A stretch of 64,000 nucleotides of DNA from NCBI RefSeq assembly GCF_947497045.1, contig NZ_CANMEU010000007.1, positions 124,001-188,000 on the forward strand, given 5' to 3'. The notes below the pieces were generated by a model. It was not told where the DNA came from and did not search any database. It saw nothing but the letters and a program-made list of their open reading frames with translations. Position 1 is the first letter of the stretch. The number at the start of each line of letters is the position of its first letter. Position numbers and translations under genes: made by a program. Of the stretch, positions 19,322 through 61,119 are shown in pieces. Source of the stretch: an uncultured Tateyamaria sp. Its GTDB lineage: Bacteria; Pseudomonadota; Alphaproteobacteria; Rhodobacterales; Rhodobacteraceae.

Positions 19322-21415
19322 GTGATCGCACCGCTTCAATCCGCTCTGACCGCCCGTGGTTATACTGACCTGACCCCTGTTCAAGAGGCCGTCACTGACC
19401 CTGACCTGATCGGTGCGGACCTGTTGGTCTCTGCCCAGACCGGGTCAGGCAAGACGGTCGGCTTTGGCCTTGCGCTTGGCCCCACCTTGCTGGGTGACGA
19501 AGAGTTGTTTCAGATCGCCGACGCCCCGCTTGCACTGGTTATTGCGCCCACGCGCGAGTTGGCGATGCAGGTCAAACGCGAGCTTGGTTGGCTTTATGGC
19601 GAGACGGGCGTCGTCATGGCGTCCTGCGTGGGCGGCATGGACATGCGCGACGAGCGCCGCGCGCTTGGCCGGGGGGCGCATATCGTGGTCGCCACGCCGG
19701 GCCGTTTGCGCGATCACATCATGCGTGGCTCCATCGATTTGACGGCCATCCGCGGTGTGGTGCTGGACGAGGCCGACGAGATGCTCGACCTTGGCTTTCG
19801 CGAGGACCTCGAATTTATTCTGGGCGAATGCCCCGACAGCCGCCGCACGCTCATGTTCTCGGCCACGGTGCCGGCGCAGATCGCGCGGCTGGCCAAGACC
19901 TATCAGAAGGACGCCGTGCGCGTTGCGACCACCACAGGCGAAAAGCAGCACGCCGACATCACCTATCAGGCCATGACGGTCGCCAATCACGACGCTGAAA
20001 ACGCGATCATCAACATCCTGCGCTTTCACGAGGCCCCCAATGCCATTGTGTTCTGCAACACCCGCGCCATGGTGAACCGGGTCACGACCCGGCTGTCCAA
20101 CCGGGGCTTTCCTGTTGTCGCACTGTCGGGGGAATTGACCCAATCGGAACGCACCAACGCGCTGCAAGCCATGCGTGACGGGCGCGCGCGGGTGTGTGTG
20201 GCAACGGACGTGGCGGCGCGCGGCATCGACCTGCCCAACCTCGATCTCGTGGTGCATGCCGAACTGCCCTCCAACCACGAAACCTTGTTGCACCGTTCGG
20301 GTCGTACGGGCCGGGCCGGGCGCAAGGGCACAAGTGCGTTGATCGTGACGGCCAAGGTGCGCGCCAAGGCGACACGCATCCTGCGCAGTGCCAAACTGGA
20401 CGCGGAATGGATCAGCGCGCCCTCTGCCGAGGCTGTACGCGCACAGGACGAGTTGCGCCTGATGGACGATCCGATGTGGACCGATCCGATTGGTGAAGGT
20501 GAGGCGGACATGATCGCCAAACTGGTCGATCAGTTCAGTACCGACCAGCTTGCCGCCGCCTTGCTGCGCATCCATGGGCTGCGCCATTCCGCCCCCGAAC
20601 ATCTGTCCGCCGTGGCGGAGGGCAAAGCCCCGAAGGAACGTGCACCCTTCGGGCCAAGCACATGGTTCTCCGTATCGGGCGGGCGCGATCAGGGCGTTGA
20701 AGTGCGCCGTCTCTTGCCCATCGTGTGCAATGCGGGCGACATCACCAAGGACGACATTGGCGCGATCCGCATCCAGAATGATACCTCTTATGTGGAGTTG
20801 AAAACCGAAGCGGTGGACGGGTTCCTCAAGGCGCTCGGGGCTGACATGGTGGTCGAGGGCGGGGCAAAAGTCACCAAACTCGACGGGGTGCCAGATGCGG
20901 CCAGCCAGCCCAAGCCCCGGTTTGAGGGCAAACCCGGTGGCAAGCCCAAACGTGACTTTGGTGACAGGCCTAAACGCGACCACGCGGATAAACCCAAGCA
21001 CGCCTACGATGACACACCCAAACGGGACTTCAAGGACAAGCCCGCGCGCGCAGACGCGCCCAAACCCTCGGCCAAACGGGTGTGGGGTGATCCACCCAAG
21101 GCGCACAATGATGGCGCGCCGATTGACTGGAATGACACCTCGACACCCAAGCCACGCAAACCCAAACCCGGTGCGAAACCGGCTGCTGCAAAATCACGCT
21201 TTGCCAAAGCACCCAGCACCATGGACAAGGCCATTCAGGACGGGGCTGTGAGCACCCCAAAGAAACCCCGTCACAAGACCGCGCAAAAGGGCAAGCCAGG
21301 CGGCAAACCGACAGGTGCCGCGCCCAAGACCGCGAAGTACAATAGCAAGAAGAACAAGGCACGCCGGGCCGCGGGCGCACCCGGTGGCGGGCAACCGCCC
21401 CGGCGCAAACCGTAA
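19322..21415 (+). CDS. DEAD-box RNA helicase with DbpA-like RNA-binding domain
   Basis: A 697-residue ATP-dependent RNA helicase. Q motif GYTDLTPVQ (13-21), Walker A AQTGSGKT (38-45), APTREL, D-E-A-D (149-152), FSATVP and HRSGRTGRAGR are intact. A DbpA/CsdA-type RNA-binding domain follows (around residues 440-510), then a Lys/Pro/Asp-rich tail of about 170 residues with imperfect repeats of a K-P-K-R-D unit (about 20940-21050). The GTG at 19322 has TAGGA upstream; the in-frame TTG at 19274 adds a non-conserved leader. Likely role: ribosome assembly or cold-stress RNA remodelling. Confidence 0.92.
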   Translation: MIAPLQSALTARGYTDLTPVQEAVTDPDLIGADLLVSAQTGSGKTVGFGLALGPTLLGDEELFQIADAPLALVIAPTRELAMQVKRELGWLYGETGVVMASCVGGMDMRDERRALGRGAHIVVATPGRLRDHIMRGSIDLTAIRGVVLDEADEMLDLGFREDLEFILGECPDSRRTLMFSATVPAQIARLAKTYQKDAVRVATTTGEKQHADITYQAMTVANHDAENAIINILRFHEAPNAIVFCNTRAMVNRVTTRLSNRGFPVVALSGELTQSERTNALQAMRDGRARVCVATDVAARGIDLPNLDLVVHAELPSNHETLLHRSGRTGRAGRKGTSALIVTAKVRAKATRILRSAKLDAEWISAPSAEAVRAQDELRLMDDPMWTDPIGEGEADMIAKLVDQFSTDQLAAALLRIHGLRHSAPEHLSAVAEGKAPKERAPFGPSTWFSVSGGRDQGVEVRRLLPIVCNAGDITKDDIGAIRIQNDTSYVELKTEAVDGFLKALGADMVVEGGAKVTKLDGVPDAASQPKPRFEGKPGGKPKRDFGDRPKRDHADKPKHAYDDTPKRDFKDKPARADAPKPSAKRVWGDPPKAHNDGAPIDWNDTSTPKPRKPKPGAKPAAAKSRFAKAPSTMDKAIQDGAVSTPKKPRHKTAQKGKPGGKPTGAAPKTAKYNSKKNKARRAAGAPGGGQPPRRKP

Positions 21416-21433
21416 GGCGGTCCCTGGCCCGCC
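21411..21433 (+). repeat. Possible degenerate CGTAA-hairpin repeat
   Basis: CGTAAGGCGG (21411-21420) followed after eight bases by CCGCC (21429-21433) gives a 5-base stem. As in other members of this repeat family, the TAA is the stop codon of the preceding gene. The arms are short, so membership is uncertain. Confidence 0.4.
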
Positions 21434-21442
21434 TGCATCGGT

Positions 21443-46369: not shown

Positions 46370-46392
46370 GCGCATTGCGAATGCGCCTTACG
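46370..46392 (-). repeat. CGTAA-hairpin repeat, variant copy
   Basis: On the minus strand CGTAAG, then arms GCGCATT and AATGCGC around CGC (a perfect 7-bp stem). The TAA at 46390-46388 is the stop codon of the hydratase gene. The arms differ in sequence from the other copies, but the layout (CGTAA, G, stem, 3-base loop) is the same. It lies between convergent glk and hpaH, where a bidirectional stop would be useful. Confidence 0.65.
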
Positions 46393-47182
46393 CAAATTCC
46401 ACTGTCACCGCGCCAAAATTCCCGAAATCCGCGTGGATATTTGTGCCGGACGGGCATTCGATGGGCCGGATGAAGCTGCCTGACAGGATGACCTGCCCCG
46501 CCTTGATCGTGTCGCCATAAATCGCCATGCGGCGCGCCAGCCACACCACGCTCTCCACGGGATCGTTCAGCACACCCGCGCCGAGGCCGGTTTCTTCCAC
46601 CGTGTCGCCTGCTTTGACGATGGCCCCGACCCATCGCAGGTCGTCAGGCTGATGGCGCGCGGTGCCCATCACGATCCCTGCATTGGCGGCGTTGTCGGCG
46701 ATGGTATCGAAGACCTTGCGGGCGTGACCCGTTGCAGGGTCAGTACGCAAGATGCGGGTGTCGAGGATTTCGAGGGCAGGGGCGACATAGTCCGTGGCCT
46801 TCAAAACGTCGTCACGGGTGATGTCCGCCCCCCCAAGGTCCGCGCCCATGATAAAGGCAATCTCGGCCTCCACTCTGGGCTGAATGAAATGGCCCGCCGG
46901 AATGATCGCGCCGGTTTCGAAGTGCATCGAGCGGGTCAGAACGCCGCTGTCGGGAATGTCGATGTTCAGCGCCTGCTGCATGGCGCGGCTGGTCAGCCCG
47001 ATTTTCCAGCCCGTGACCGGATCGCCTGCTGCCACCTTGGCGGCCACGACCTGCGCCTGGATCGCATAGGCGTCGTCCATGGTGATACCGGGGTAGGCGA
47101 GCGACAACAGGCCGGTCTGCGTGCGCATTCGTTCCGCGTCGATCAGGGCGCGTGCCGCGCTTGCGTGCTCCTCAGGTCTCAT
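46388..47182 (-). CDS. hpaH: 2-oxo-hept-4-ene-1,7-dioate hydratase
   Basis: A 264-residue metal-dependent hydratase of the FAH-related 2-keto-4-pentenoate hydratase family, in size and motifs (GWKIGLTSRAMQQAL, GVLTRSMHFETG, PRVEAEIAFIMG) like HpaH of the homoprotocatechuate meta-cleavage path. Start 47182 (MRPEEHASAARALIDAE) overlaps the HpaG-type gene by 11 bases; the longer frame is not conserved. The aldolase (HpaI) is not in this window. Confidence 0.9.
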   Translation of the reverse strand: MRPEEHASAARALIDAERMRTQTGLLSLAYPGITMDDAYAIQAQVVAAKVAAGDPVTGWKIGLTSRAMQQALNIDIPDSGVLTRSMHFETGAIIPAGHFIQPRVEAEIAFIMGADLGGADITRDDVLKATDYVAPALEILDTRILRTDPATGHARKVFDTIADNAANAGIVMGTARHQPDDLRWVGAIVKAGDTVEETGLGAGVLNDPVESVVWLARRMAIYGDTIKAGQVILSGSFIRPIECPSGTNIHADFGNFGAVTVEFA

Positions 47183-49443: not shown

Positions 49444-49467
49444 GGCGCACGACACGTGCGCCTTACG
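49444..49467 (-). repeat. CGTAA-hairpin repeat, copy 2
   Basis: Arms GGCGCACG (49444-49451) and CGTGCGCC (49455-49462) around ACA, then TTACG. Relative to copy 1 one G-to-C change in one arm is matched by the C-to-G change in the other, so the stem, not the sequence, is conserved. It lies between hpaE and the decarboxylase gene, both on the minus strand. Confidence 0.85.
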
Positions 49468-51161: not shown

Positions 51162-51962
51162 ATGTCGACCGTTGCCAAAGCCTTGGGTCTGTTGGACCTG
51201 TTTTCGGACACGCAACCCCGCTTGGGGCTGTCGGATGTCCAACGTCTGACTGGCCGGGACAAGGCGACCGTGCATCGCCACCTCAGCGCCCTTGAACAGA
51301 TGGGGTTTCTGGAACAGGACCCGATCAGTCGCGCCTATCGTTTGGGGCCTGCCGTGACCCGGTTGGCTGCAATGCGGGCCCGTACCGTGCCCGAAGTCGA
51401 GATGGTGCGTGCTGTTGTGGATGCGGTGAGCCGTGCGGCGGGTGAGTTGGTTCATCTCAGCCGAGTGCGGGGCTTTGATCTGGTGGATATCTATCACGCC
51501 GAACACCACGACCACCCTGTGCGTGTCAGCTTTGATGCCTATGGGTTGCCGCCGCTATTGGCCACGTCATCGGGCAAAGCCTACCTCGCGTTTTCTGCCC
51601 CCGATATACGGGAGCGGGCGCTGGCCGATCCGCGCACCCGCCTAGCCTCGGCCCCTGCGCCGGATGCGGACGTGCTGGCGGCGGAGATGGATGAGATCGC
51701 GGCCCGAGGCTATGCGTGCAACCGGGATCAGTTGCGTGCTGGCGTGTCCTCGGTCGCGATCCCGGTTTTTCAAGCGCAGGGCGCGGTTTTTGCCACCTGT
51801 TCCATCGCATATCCCACAAGCCGCGGCGGTGCAGAGGTCGAGGCCCGCCTAGCGCATCTGCTGGTGCAGCACGGCACCGACATCACCCATGCGATGGGGG
51901 GCCATGTGCCGCCCGCGGTTCAAACGATCTGGACCCAGACTTATGAAAGGACTGCGCCATGA
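51162..51962 (+). CDS. IclR family transcriptional regulator
   Basis: A 266-residue regulator: an N-terminal winged helix (LGLSDVQRLTGRDKATVHRHLSAL, about 21-44) and a C-terminal ligand-binding domain with LATSSGKAYLAF and the SVAIPVF segment. Local regulators of aromatic catabolism often belong to this family, so it likely senses an intermediate of the flanking operons. No clear ribosome binding site precedes ATG 51162. Its stop overlaps the aminotransferase start by ATGA. Confidence 0.9.
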   Translation: MSTVAKALGLLDLFSDTQPRLGLSDVQRLTGRDKATVHRHLSALEQMGFLEQDPISRAYRLGPAVTRLAAMRARTVPEVEMVRAVVDAVSRAAGELVHLSRVRGFDLVDIYHAEHHDHPVRVSFDAYGLPPLLATSSGKAYLAFSAPDIRERALADPRTRLASAPAPDADVLAAEMDEIAARGYACNRDQLRAGVSSVAIPVFQAQGAVFATCSIAYPTSRGGAEVEARLAHLLVQHGTDITHAMGGHVPPAVQTIWTQTYERTAP

Positions 51963-53317
51963 AAGACAGCAATTTCCTCAAGGAAAACAATGCCCGTCAG
52001 TTGTGGCATCCAATGGCGCACCCTGCCGACAGCATGGCAAACCCACCCACTATCCTGACCGGGGGCGAGGGGGTTTATATCACGGACGTGGATGGGCATC
52101 GCAGCATCGACGCGGTGGGTGGCTTGTGGAACGTCAACCTCGGCTATTCCTGTCAACCTGTCAAAAACGCGATTGCCGCGCAGCTCGATGCGCTGCCCTA
52201 CTATTCCACCTTCCGGGGCACATCGAATGACAAGGCGATCGAGTTGGCCTATCTGTTGGCTGACTTCTTCGGCCCCGATGGGATGAGCCGCAGCTTTTTC
52301 ACCTCTGGCGGGTCCGACAGCATCGAAATTGCACTCAAACTGGCGCGCCAGTTTCACCGTATCCGGGGCGATGGCGCGCGGACCAAGTTCATCAGCCTCG
52401 ACAAAGGCTATCATGGGACCCATTTCGGGGGCGCGTCGGTGAACGGCAACGCCAAGTTCCGCAACACCTATGAACCGCTCATGGCGGGCTGTTTCCACAT
52501 TCCGGGCCCATACCTTTATCGCAACCCCTTCGGGACGGACGATCCTGCCGAACTGGCGCGTCTGAGCGCGGGCATGCTTGAGCGTGAGATCGCCTTTCAG
52601 GGGCCCAACACGGTCGCCGCCTTCGTGATGGAGCCGGTGCAGGGGGCGGGCGGTGTAATCGTGCCGCACCCATCATTCATGCCGATGGTGCGTGACATCT
52701 GTGACAAACATGGGGTGTTGCTGATTGCGGATGAGGTAATCACCGCCTTTGGCCGCACCGGCTCACCCACGGGCGCGCGCCATTGGGGGGTGCAACCTGA
52801 TCTGATGTGCACCGCGAAGGCGATCACGAACGGGTATTTCCCCTTTGGGGCGGTGATGATTGCGGACCGGGTCGTGTCTGTGTTTGAGGATGACCAAAGC
52901 GGCGCGGGATCTGTGGACAGCGGATATACCTATTCCGGCCATCCGGTGGGTGCAGCTGCCGCGGTCGCTGCGGTTGAGGAAACCATGTGCCTGCGCCCTT
53001 GGGACAATGCAGCCGTGCGCGGGCGTGAGTTGAAGGCGGGGCTGGACGCCCTCGCAACCCGTTATGATGTGATCGGGGACGTGCGCGGCGAAGGGCTGAT
53101 GTGCGCGATTGAGTTTGTCAGCGACCCATTGGCCAAAACGCCGATTGGCAAGGCGCTACCATTGGCCTTCCAAAAGGCCGCTTACGAGGATGGCGTGATG
53201 ATCCGGGTGTCTGGCAACAACGCCATTTTCTCACCGCCTTTGGTGGTTGAAGCGGGGCATGTGCAAAAGATCCTGAGCGCGACCGAAGCCGGACTGAAGG
53301 CGATGATGGCTGCGTAA
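51959..53317 (+). CDS. Class III aminotransferase
   Basis: A 452-residue PLP-dependent aminotransferase of the omega-amino acid/pyruvate type. The PLP lysine is in CTAKAITNGYFPFGAVM, preceded by the LIADEVITAFGRTG motif; HPVGAAAA follows. It probably deaminates an amine or omega-amino acid to an aldehyde using pyruvate or 2-oxoglutarate. Coupling to the IclR gene and the divergent decarboxylase and dehydrogenase suggests an amine-to-aldehyde-to-acid route. The TAA stop is part of a palindromic repeat. Confidence 0.9.
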   Translation: MKDSNFLKENNARQLWHPMAHPADSMANPPTILTGGEGVYITDVDGHRSIDAVGGLWNVNLGYSCQPVKNAIAAQLDALPYYSTFRGTSNDKAIELAYLLADFFGPDGMSRSFFTSGGSDSIEIALKLARQFHRIRGDGARTKFISLDKGYHGTHFGGASVNGNAKFRNTYEPLMAGCFHIPGPYLYRNPFGTDDPAELARLSAGMLEREIAFQGPNTVAAFVMEPVQGAGGVIVPHPSFMPMVRDICDKHGVLLIADEVITAFGRTGSPTGARHWGVQPDLMCTAKAITNGYFPFGAVMIADRVVSVFEDDQSGAGSVDSGYTYSGHPVGAAAAVAAVEETMCLRPWDNAAVRGRELKAGLDALATRYDVIGDVRGEGLMCAIEFVSDPLAKTPIGKALPLAFQKAAYEDGVMIRVSGNNAIFSPPLVVEAGHVQKILSATEAGLKAMMAA

Positions 53318-53336
53318 GGCGGACGTGTCGTCCGCC
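53313..53336 (+). repeat. CGTAA-hairpin repeat, copy 3
   Basis: CGTAA (53313-53317) then arms GGCGGACG and CGTCCGCC around TGT (53318-53336). The TAA is the aminotransferase stop codon. The unit is identical to copy 4 at 59996-60019 over all 24 bases and is the reverse complement of copy 1. Confidence 0.9.
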
Positions 53337-57459: not shown

Positions 57460-57487
57460 CTGGGTCCCCTCCCGAAGGTCAAGAAAC

Positions 57488-57510
57488 GGGGCAGGTGATG
57501 GACCTGCCCC
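57488..57510 (-). other. Perfect hairpin before frcC
   Basis: Arms GGGGCAGGT and ACCTGCCCC (9 bp) with GATGG between them, 28 bases before the frcC start on the transcript. It may limit frcC translation or mark a processing site downstream of frcB. Confidence 0.7.
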
Positions 57511-57561
57511 GATTGGTATTGGCAAAATGGCGAGCCTAGAGTTGCCCTCGGGGCTCCGCCC

Positions 57562-58760: not shown

Positions 58761-59987
58761 ATGCTCGCAAAGAGAGGTATTATCGTGACTGCGGATCATG
58801 TGCGCAGCCTGTCGGGGGGGATCAACCAGACCGGCGTGCGGGCTCATAACGAGCGGCTGATGCTGTCAGTGTTGCAGCGCAATGGCGCACTGCCCGGCAG
58901 TGATCTGGCCCGTCGCACCGGGCTGTCGCCACAGACTGCTTCGGTGATCCTGCGCAAGCTCGAACAGGATGGTCTGTTGCGCCGTGGCGCGTCGGTAAAG
59001 GGCAAGGTGGGCAAGCCGTCCGTGCCCTTTGCGTTGAACCCCGATGGCGTGTTCACCCTTGGCCTCAAGGTGGGGCGGCGCAGCGCGGATATGGTTGTGC
59101 TCGATATGCTGGGCGACATTCGTCACCAGGTGCGCGTGACCTATGATTACCCGCTGCCGGATACGGTGTTCGGTTTTCTGCGTGACGGGTTTGCGGCGTT
59201 GATGAATGATATGCCCGAGGACATGCGCGCCCGGCTGTCCGGCATCGGCATCGCGGCCCCGTTCGAGCTATGGCATTGGCACGAGCTGCTTGGCGCGCCT
59301 GCCGACCAGTTCGCGGCATGGAAAGACGCGGACTTTGCGACCCAGGCCGCGCAGATCACCGGGTTGGCCGTGCATATGGTCAATGATGCAACCGCCGCTT
59401 GCCGCGCCGAACATGTGTTTGGGATTGGACGGGAATACCGGGACTACGTCTATTTCTATGTGGGGGCGTTCATCGGGGGTGGGATCGTGCTGGATCACGC
59501 GGTGTTCGAGGGCAATCAGGACAATGCAGGTGCCTTTGGGTCGATGCCTGTGCCCGACCTGCAAAACCGACCCGCTCAGTTGATTGATCTTGCGTCGATC
59601 CACGCGCTGGAAGGGCGGTTGGAGCGGGCCGGTCAAGACCCCCGCCAGCTTTGGGCGCAACCGCAGGACTGGTCCCATCTGGAGACGCATGTGGGGCCGT
59701 GGCTGGAACAGGCCGCCGATGGGCTGGCATGGGCGGTGGTGTCGTCCTGCGCAGTGATGGATTTCGAGGCCGTGGTGATCGACGGGGCGCTGCCTGCTGA
59801 CATACGGGCGCGGCTGGTCGATATGACGTGCGCGGCTCTTGCGACCAAAGACATGCGGGGGCTGATCCCGCCTGTGACCGTTGCGGGCAATATCGGGGCC
59901 GATGCGCGGGGGATCGGGGCGGCGGCCGGGCCGATGATCAGCCAGTTCCTGCTGGGCAGATCATCGGCGCAGGTGCAGTATCCCTGA
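58761..59987 (+). CDS. ROK family transcriptional regulator (FrcR-like)
   Basis: A 408-residue ROK repressor: winged helix LPGSDLARRTGLSPQTASVILRKLE and a sugar-kinase-like domain with GIGIAAPFELW, VNDATAACRAEH and GAFIGGGIVLDH. The C-x-C-G-x-x-G-C-x-E zinc motif, present in the XylR of this window, is missing: the stretch after GAFGSMPVPD has no Cys. It probably senses fructose or mannose by other contacts. GTG 58785, preceded by GAGAGG, is an alternative start. Confidence 0.88.
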   Translation: MLAKRGIIVTADHVRSLSGGINQTGVRAHNERLMLSVLQRNGALPGSDLARRTGLSPQTASVILRKLEQDGLLRRGASVKGKVGKPSVPFALNPDGVFTLGLKVGRRSADMVVLDMLGDIRHQVRVTYDYPLPDTVFGFLRDGFAALMNDMPEDMRARLSGIGIAAPFELWHWHELLGAPADQFAAWKDADFATQAAQITGLAVHMVNDATAACRAEHVFGIGREYRDYVYFYVGAFIGGGIVLDHAVFEGNQDNAGAFGSMPVPDLQNRPAQLIDLASIHALEGRLERAGQDPRQLWAQPQDWSHLETHVGPWLEQAADGLAWAVVSSCAVMDFEAVVIDGALPADIRARLVDMTCAALATKDMRGLIPPVTVAGNIGADARGIGAAAGPMISQFLLGRSSAQVQYP

Positions 59988-59995
59988 TATCAAGG

Positions 59996-60019
59996 CGTAA
60001 GGCGGACGTGTCGTCCGCC
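59996..60019 (+). repeat. CGTAA-hairpin repeat, copy 4
   Basis: CGTAA (59996-60000) and the hairpin GGCGGACG-TGT-CGTCCGCC (60001-60019), identical to copy 3. It lies between the convergent ROK regulator and the ATPase gene of the alpha-glucoside operon, 8 bases after one stop and 8 before the other. Confidence 0.9.
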
Positions 60020-60027
60020 CTGCTGGC

Positions 60028-61119
60028 CTAGCGGTAGTAAAGCGACTGCCCATTGGCGAACAGCTGCACTTTCTCAGGCACAGCAGTGACCTTGACGGTC
60101 TGGCCACGCAGGCTTTGGTGGATGCCGGGCATCTTGGCCAGCACGGCCTGTGCATCGCCGTTGGCCATGAAATAGAGGATCGTGACCTCGCCCAGGGCCT
60201 CGGTGAAATCGACCACACCCTCATAGGCGGCGTCATCCCCTGTGGTCACAGTCATGTCTTCGGGGCGCACGCCCACGTTGACCTTCAAGCCCTTGTCCGC
60301 ATCTGTCGTGGGCACTGCGGATGTGATCATCAACCCGCTGTCCATCTTGATCTTGGTCATGGCGCCGGTTTCGACGATTTCGCCGGGCAGCAGGTTCATC
60401 GAAGGGGACCCGATGAACTGGGCCACAAACTCGTTCTCGGGACGCTCGTAAAGCTCAAGGGGAGAACCGACCTGCGCGATGCCCTTGTTGGCAAGCACCA
60501 CGATGCGGCTGGCCAGTGTCATCGCCTCGACCTGATCGTGGGTCACATAGATCATTGTGCTGTCGGGCATCGATTCCTTGAGCTGCGCAATCTCGATCCG
60601 GGTGGCGACGCGCAAGGCGGCATCCAGGTTCGAGAGGGGTTCATCAAAGAGATAGACCTTGGGATCGCGCACGATCGAGCGGCCAATGGCAACCCGCTGG
60701 CGCTGCCCGCCGGACAGGGCCTTGGGCAAGCGATCCAGATAAGGTTCGAGTTGCAGGATACGCGCGGCCTTGTCGACGGCGGCGTTGATCTCTTCCGGTG
60801 ATTTCTTGGCCAGCTTCAGCGCGAAGGTCATGTTGTCGCGCACCGTCATATGCGGATAAAGCGCGTAGGACTGGAACACCATCGCGATGCCGCGTTGGGC
60901 CGGAGGGACATCGTTGACGACTGTCCCGTCGATCTCAAGCGTGCCGCCCGAGATTTTCTCAAGACCCGCGATCATGCGCAGCAACGTGGACTTGCCACAG
61001 CCCGATGGGCCGACGAACACGATCAACTCGCCCTTTTGGATGTCGAGGTTGATGTCGTTGAGCACATTGACCGTGCCCCCGTAGGTCTTGGCGACATCTG
61101 TCAGTTTTAGATCAGCCAT
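60028..61119 (-). CDS. aglK: Alpha-glucoside-type ABC transporter ATPase (UgpC/MalK family)
   Basis: A 363-residue MalK-type ATPase. Walker A GPSGCGKST, Q-loop FQSYALYPHMTV, signature [15 protein letters not shown], Walker B FDEPLSNLDA, and a C-terminal OB/TOBE domain (VGVRPEDMTVT). Fits AglK, the energising subunit of aglEFGAK; such ATPases can serve several sugar importers. A GGGAGGGAC precedes the ATG. Confidence 0.93.
   Translation of the reverse strand: MADLKLTDVAKTYGGTVNVLNDINLDIQKGELIVFVGPSGCGKSTLLRMIAGLEKISGGTLEIDGTVVNDVPPAQRGIAMVFQSYALYPHMTVRDNMTFALKLAKKSPEEINAAVDKAARILQLEPYLDRLPKALSGGQRQRVAIGRSIVRDPKVYLFDEPLSNLDAALRVATRIEIAQLKESMPDSTMIYVTHDQVEAMTLASRIVVLANKGIAQVGSPLELYERPENEFVAQFIGSPSMNLLPGEIVETGAMTKIKMDSGLMITSAVPTTDADKGLKVNVGVRPEDMTVTTGDDAAYEGVVDFTEALGEVTILYFMANGDAQAVLAKMPGIHQSLRGQTVKVTAVPEKVQLFANGQSLYYR

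Follow-up and report, generated by a model that had tools for sequence, protein, structure and literature searches.

GTAA hairpin repeats at gene ends of Tateyamaria and a conserved RAYT-derived protein that lacks catalytic residues

RESULTS

GTAA hairpin elements in the window

The window, by which we mean the whole stretch of DNA analysed here, comprises 64,000 nucleotides (G000:C7:124001-188000) of the 4.24-Mb draft genome of an uncultured Tateyamaria sp. (G000). An earlier note had pointed to four dispersed copies of CGTAA plus a short perfect hairpin. All four were real: a pattern search allowing 3 mismatches placed them exactly at 883-905 and 49444-49466 on the minus strand and at 53314-53336 and 59997-60019 on the plus strand. 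The GTAAGGCGSACGTGTCGTSCGCC pattern matched 4 times in the window and 0 times in 100 shuffled sequences. The unit consists of a GTAA tag, an 8-bp stem and a 3-base loop, and the four window copies are perfect.

The copy at 53313-53336 (plus strand; CGTAA, 8-bp stem, 3-base loop) closes a class-III aminotransferase ORF (51959-53317), whose stop codon is the TAA of the tag (53315-53317); folded as RNA, it gave -15 kcal/mol (z -3.9). It is identical over 27 bases, beyond the 24 claimed earlier, to the copy at 59996-60019 (plus strand), which lies between the convergent genes 58761-59987 (+) and 60028-61119 (-). The minus-strand copy at 883-906 sits 7 nt past the stop codon of a predicted GNAT-like gene (369-875), with a histidinol dehydrogenase gene (981-2282) next to it. 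Two minus-strand genes flank the minus-strand copy at 49444-49467, in which the previously noticed compensated stem change was confirmed (GGCGCACG/CGTGCGCC in place of GGCGGACG/CGTCCGCC). As had also been said, no T-run follows any of the four copies.

Two variants had been listed as well. The one at 46370-46391 (minus strand, 7-bp stem) lies between convergent genes, and its TTA at 46388-46390 is the stop codon of the minus-strand gene 46388-47182. It is genuine, since the sister genome G011 has a family member at the orthologous place, where the tag is the same but the hairpin differs. The case of the plus-strand variant at 21411-21434 is mixed, as its hairpin is imperfect but its 24 bases are unchanged in G011 amid changed surroundings; the TAA at 21413-21415 ends a DEAD-box helicase gene (19322-21415). 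The tag TAA is thus the stop codon of a predicted gene at three of the six window places. No part of the window matched Rfam at the gathering score. On the minus strand, a hairpin of 10 bp that has a T-rich tail (57487-57511) is a candidate for a classical terminator; terminators of the ordinary kind may therefore coexist with these hairpins.

A genome-wide family with covarying stems

The earlier note proposed a genome-wide count with a covariance model and a check for covariation. A model built from 12 copies gave 130 matches in G000 at E<=10, 104 at E<0.01 and 91 at E<=0.001. The 104 places at E<0.01 were taken as the copy set, most of the 26 weaker matches being the opposite strand of the same places; the 104 copies make up 89 sites. 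The exact 28-base length was found in 97 of the 104 copies, which contain 34 distinct cores, the two leading identical cores accounting for 28 and 14 copies. Compensated stem changes were seen among these 97 copies: C-G and G-C are equally common at pair 13-19 (45 copies each), G-C outnumbers C-G at pair 11-21 (64 against 25), and at pair 14-18 there are 87 copies with G-C and 9 with C-G. The loop sequence TGT is shared by 86 of the 97. Over the distinct cores, 0.98 of the stem pairs were standard; in shuffled sets (n=1000) the mean was 0.82 and the highest value 0.875, the search model itself favouring pairing. These comparisons indicate that the two arms of the hairpin change together. Copies less than 200 nt apart were in minus-plus order with their tags inwards in 15 of 15 pairs. 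Two such REP pairs (G000:C1:67434-67507 and C1:91004-91077) have equal scores and spacing about 23.6 kb apart and perhaps mark a duplicated segment.

Position relative to genes

Genes were called with a purpose-made codon-usage finder, by which contig C7 is 90% coding. Intergenic enrichment was borne out: 93 of the 104 copies are intergenic, 6 lie inside predicted genes and 5 overlap one partially (binomial P ~3e-78). Among 97 typed copies the neighbouring genes are convergent in 51 cases, tandem in 45 and divergent in 1. Of the 97 copies that neighbour a gene end, 79 have a hairpin beginning no more than 15 nt from the stop codon. The untagged side faces the gene in 65 of these 79 and the tag side in 14; an mRNA from the former orientation would contain hairpin-UUAC, which is complementary to the tagged strand. 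In 8 of the 104 copies, including the one at 53313, the tag TAA is itself the predicted stop codon.

Among 97 gene-end/hairpin pairs (within 20 nt), none reached five T within the 8 bases that follow, and the label of intrinsic terminator was rejected because the T-run is missing; the terminator comparison on contig C7 covered 10 REP-bearing gene ends. The bidirectional transcription stop that the earlier note considered would fit the positions, between convergent genes and a few nucleotides past stop codons, though the T-run is missing. GTAG REPs are already known to lie near gene ends and to supply stop codons with their tags, as described in the available text of PMC3733652, so position alone is not new.

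Age and turnover of the sites

G011 is syntenic with the region over about 100 kb at 87% identity and shares seven of eight sites, the 46370 variant among them. The copy at 53313 has the same place and sequence in both genomes, the 49444 copy is identical, and the 59996 copy is present in G011 with one stem C-to-T change. The exception is 883, with no element at the matching place. Few copies, a lack of intergenic enrichment and relatives without the structure had been named as signs against a repeat family; none was the general finding, the exceptions being the 883 copy and the 53313 site. At the latter, which is occupied in G011, the 11 other Tateyamaria loci (of 12 compared) use TGA as the stop codon and lack the element over the 140 nt compared.

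The more distant genomes G001, G016 and G002 were compared over 36 regions around high-scoring copies, and G000 has an element near the matching place for 31 of their 45 sites. Counted per element, G000 offers a partner no more than 30 nt away and in the same orientation for 29 of 58, only a homologous flank for 19, and not even such a flank for 10; the 19 indicate that copies have been gained or lost. In the 29 pairs, flanking positions up to 15 nt away agree in 10-48% of cases, the base before the tag in 66% and the tag bases in 90-100%. Their 232 stem pairs comprise 213 that are the same, 15 changed on both sides, 2 changed on one side and 2 unpaired, the agreement of tag and stem being partly demanded by the search pattern. 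One-sided changes may be scarce because pairing is under strong selection or because one subtype has taken the place of another. Many sites are shared by species in which the intergenic flanks are completely diverged, and for the most part the copies appear to have stayed in place and not to be newly mobilised.

A RAYT-derived gene carries copies of the element

G000 contains two RAYT genes over the NF047646 cut-off. One of them (C2:562962-563399) scores 151 bits (cut-off 80) and has two GTAA elements at its 3' end: the first encodes the C-terminal GRTTRAPY of the protein, and the tag of the second supplies the stop codon (L040:1359-1430). The GRTTRAPY tail is present in most members of the genus. 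The protein aligned with E. coli TnpAREP (4er8) with full-length similarity (E 1.5e-29), and it has V-I-Y at the HUH place, Met for the catalytic Tyr and Ala for the metal-ligand Asn. The numbering of these residues (Y115, N119) follows PMC8266576 and PMC6006769, as given in the portions available to us, and their positions in the alignment were counted by hand. As the first His, Tyr and Asn are lost, we filed the protein as RAYT-derived, not as an active RAYT, and refer to it as the dead RAYT. All 16 aligned Tyr-less proteins match NF047646. The dead RAYT can be aligned along the whole RAYT domain and retains the WQRRFWE and SS.HR regions, and no tyrosine is invariant in the 16-row alignment.

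The other RAYT (C7:100119-100553; L039, region to 100658) lies 23 kb before the window and has both HUH and Tyr. It is flanked by another type of palindrome, GTAGGGTGGGC...GCCCACC, with GTAG at one end and GTAA on the other strand; three palindromes of this type were seen on G000 contig C7 and none on G011 contig C7. This intact RAYT was rejected as the partner of the GTAA element because of its different palindrome and because the dead RAYT carries GTAA copies. Its assignment to IS200 proper was also rejected (NF033573 score 17.9, cut-off 55). PF01797 is too weak a model for these RAYTs: the intact protein fell below its cut-off, the G000 dead RAYT had no match, and 6 of the 16 dead proteins matched weakly (best E 0.025).

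The REP-type nature suspected earlier is borne out by a short palindrome at 104 mostly intergenic places and by an associated RAYT-family gene, copies being linked to it in 13 of the 17 genus genomes that have the dead RAYT. The further suggestion that a RAYT-like transposase mobilises the repeat stood only in part. A RAYT relative does adjoin two copies, but its catalytic residues are gone, many sites are old and shared, and G011 and G001, the genomes of the genus that are richest in copies besides G000, have no other RAYT match.

Spread and conservation of the Tyr-less type

All 20 Tateyamaria genomes had a RAYT match at E<=0.001, 19 of them over the cut-off. The Tyr-less type occurs in 17 of the 20, with Tyr, Asn and the first His missing in 17 of 17. 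Beyond the genus, a family sample of 295 genomes contained 93 with a RAYT, and 29 + 30 loci were fetched from a subset of them; within these fetched loci the Tyr-less type was found in at least ten other genera. In ten proteins from other genera, Tyr is missing from all, Asn is replaced by Ala in nine and by Ser in one, and HUH is kept in three (L090, L177 and L185, from three genera), which suggests that Tyr may have been lost before His. In a tree made without fragments of fewer than 140 residues and without duplicate loci, the Tyr-less rows formed one group of 27 of the 71 rows with support of 100/97, the bootstrap being not fully settled. Four rows outside the clade (L080, L100, L196 and L198) also lack Tyr, so single losses happen elsewhere too. 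A class-wide search of 385 genomes gave hits in 5 genomes of other families, some of them fragments, with the residues intact where readable.

The dead RAYT gene lies between the same two neighbours, read as an SDR gene and a class-I amidotransferase-like gene, in 15 of the 17 genus genomes and beside the second neighbour in the other two. Both neighbours were found in three other genera and the first one in a fourth. These constant neighbours indicate that the gene has been inherited in place. Pairwise dN/dS within the genus had a median of 0.127 and a maximum of 0.29 (16 sequences, the divergent L166 omitted; dS lay between 0 and 2 in the 74 pairs used, out of 120), and by this measure the dead RAYT is under purifying selection. 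In IQ-TREE codon runs some copy-poor genomes were on longer branches; branch length alone is no test of relaxed selection. In three genomes an intact-type RAYT gene is interrupted or broken (L143 in G009, L164 in G019 and L171 in G007), and the same genomes have open dead-type genes.

Copy number and the dead RAYT across genomes

The covariance model counted 91, 83, 47, 43, 54, 45, 0, 39, 7 and 1 copies in G000 to G009 and 1, 95, 69, 1, 45, 0, 58, 6, 26 and 44 in G010 to G019. The three genomes without the dead RAYT (G006, G013 and G015) have 0, 1 and 0 copies (Mann-Whitney P 0.005). Elements were found at the 3' end of the gene in all 13 genomes with at least 26 copies and in none of the 4 copy-poor genomes that have the gene (Fisher P 0.0004, a value that ignores kinship). 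These four genomes (G008, G009, G010 and G017) have an open dead-RAYT frame, yet only 7, 1, 1 and 6 copies, which argues against simple dependence and suggests that the protein may have another reason to stay. In 200-kb samples, GTAA hairpins were absent from G010 and G017 and numbered 11 in G000 and 9 in G011 per ~200 kb.

Several Tateyamaria genomes also hold an intact RAYT. In G001, G011 and G018, with 83, 95 and 26 copies, the dead RAYT is the sole RAYT match at E<=0.001. In two genomes of other genera (G206 and G207) the sole RAYT match is Tyr-less, and its flanking palindrome type is repeated, with counts of 30 and 45 in which the two strands of a palindrome are separate entries; control hits were 0, and this type was absent from G000, G068 and G074. 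The GTAA model itself had no hits in 293 family-sample genomes among the best 25 candidates per genome (the best 25 of 91 in G000), a depth that could overlook copies in other genera if these are few or diverged. As far as tested, the family is restricted to the genus Tateyamaria.

DISCUSSION

Our results are probably best explained by a domesticated, mostly immobile set of REPs that serve as 3'-end hairpins, together with a catalytically dead RAYT that is kept as their likely binder. REPs are normally regarded as moved by an active RAYT. In Tateyamaria the copies persist in place, in some genomes with no RAYT match that retains the catalytic residues, alongside a conserved protein that has the sequence of that family without its chemistry. 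Domestication is the simplest account of this, and the comparisons suggest that DNA elements which were formerly mobile now belong permanently to the gene ends. From the copies, their positions, the residue losses and the selection on the protein, all read from sequence, we infer function and binding as follows. The dead RAYT would no longer move the GTAA copies. The hairpins would be kept for a job at the mRNA 3' end, as a barrier to exonucleases, a transcription stop between convergent genes or a brake on the terminating ribosome. The protein would be kept because it still binds tag and hairpin, perhaps at its own gene too. Two ready mechanisms would be ribosome stalling, as reported for E. 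coli REPs no more than 15 nt from the stop codon (PMC12306157, consulted as excerpts), and a transcription stop between convergent genes. According to the available portion of PMC8266576, active RAYTs bind only the tagged strand; as the mRNA would carry the complement in 65 of the 79 near-stop copies, binding to mRNA is doubtful and single-stranded DNA would be the likelier target. We hold more tentatively, as a real possibility, that in the Rhodobacterales family to which Tateyamaria belongs a RAYT lost catalysis and became a dedicated hairpin binder, with about 100 frozen, formerly mobile gene-end sites, its own gene included, being read by the protein.

The placement of the hairpins past stop codons, the lack of divergent sites and the joint changes of the two arms could also mean that the hairpin alone matters, selection or gene conversion keeping it as a terminator or mRNA 3' stabiliser to which the dead RAYT is unrelated; persistence of the protein in copy-poor genomes is in line with this. 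We consider this reading unlikely. Besides pairing, the tag, the stem base and the loop are kept (a result conditioned on the search model or pattern), an indication that some protein reads them, and copy number is tightly tied to elements at the RAYT gene, kinship being ignored in that comparison. Rather improbable, in our judgement, is an ordinary mobile REP family, moved in trans or until recently by an intact RAYT while the dead RAYT merely decays. In favour of such a family are the intact RAYTs of several genomes, the half of the copies in three relatives that have no G000 partner and the common identical cores (28 and 14 copies). However, G001, G011 and G018 lack another RAYT match at E<=0.001, and the intact RAYT of G000 is flanked by a different palindrome. 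Decay also sits poorly with a gene whose frame is open in 17 genomes, whose locus is fixed and whose median dN/dS is 0.127.

It is highly improbable that the Tyr-less protein is an active nuclease that uses a substitute nucleophile and still moves its REPs. The full domain alignment with its WQRRFWE and SS.HR regions and the turnover of copies between species would agree with activity, but the 16-row alignment contains no invariant tyrosine and Asn and the first His are lost as well. Moreover, Y-to-F mutants of two related enzymes yielded no product in the part of PMC8266576 consulted.

If domestication holds, this lineage bears on the open question of why bacteria retain RAYTs and REPs for so long. 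Enzyme activity is lost while protein and repeats are kept, which separates transposition from the benefit that maintains the system and makes that benefit testable. Surveys that demand an intact HUH and Tyr leave out a conserved protein group.

Within the portions of the open-access literature available to us, we recognised no description of Tateyamaria REPs or of a conserved Tyr-less RAYT clade. A close parallel in the accessible text of PMC3733652 is with GTAG REPs and REPtrons, which share with the GTAA family a short hairpin that carries an unpaired tag of 4 bases, an opposite orientation of the two members of a pair, a place between convergent or tandem genes near 3' ends, a tag that is sometimes the stop codon, and a RAYT gene flanked by copies. 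The published GTAG variants keep their final G, whereas the GTAA tag ends in A. Membership in the GTAG superfamily (GTAG, GYAG, GYRG, GTRG, GTMG) was rejected, the fourth tag base being A in 96 of 97 copies under a search model that favours A. The CGTC superfamily, defined by a CGTC tag, a 4-5 base loop and a stem that opens with two A-T pairs, was rejected too, since the element has GTAA, a loop of 3 and a stem starting G-C, G-C. Every RAYT and TIRYT aligned in PMC3733652 is stated there to conserve Tyr and HUH; in contrast, the Tateyamaria protein has lost Tyr and the first HUH His.

By its NF047646 match and its similarity to 4er8, the dead RAYT resembles RAYT/TnpAREP, the class 2 Y1 HUH proteins in the sections of PMC6006769 and PMC8266576 we cite, but it differs from them in that Tyr, Asn and the first HUH His are gone. 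PMC6006769, as excerpted, kept 722 of 924 proteins by requiring both motifs and set the others aside as probably non-functional. With the REPIN-RAYT systems in the available text of PMC8049555, Tateyamaria shares a RAYT inherited at one locus and a long-lived repeat population. There the RAYT is held to keep replicating REPINs at a low rate, whereas the Tateyamaria RAYT is without catalytic residues. Finally, E. coli REPs, in the excerpts of PMC12306157, and the GTAA family both place a hairpin just past the stop codon. The near-stop share is 446 of 4,072 in E. coli, or 260 of 496 in an earlier study cited there, compared with 79 of 97 for the GTAA family by our own gene calls.
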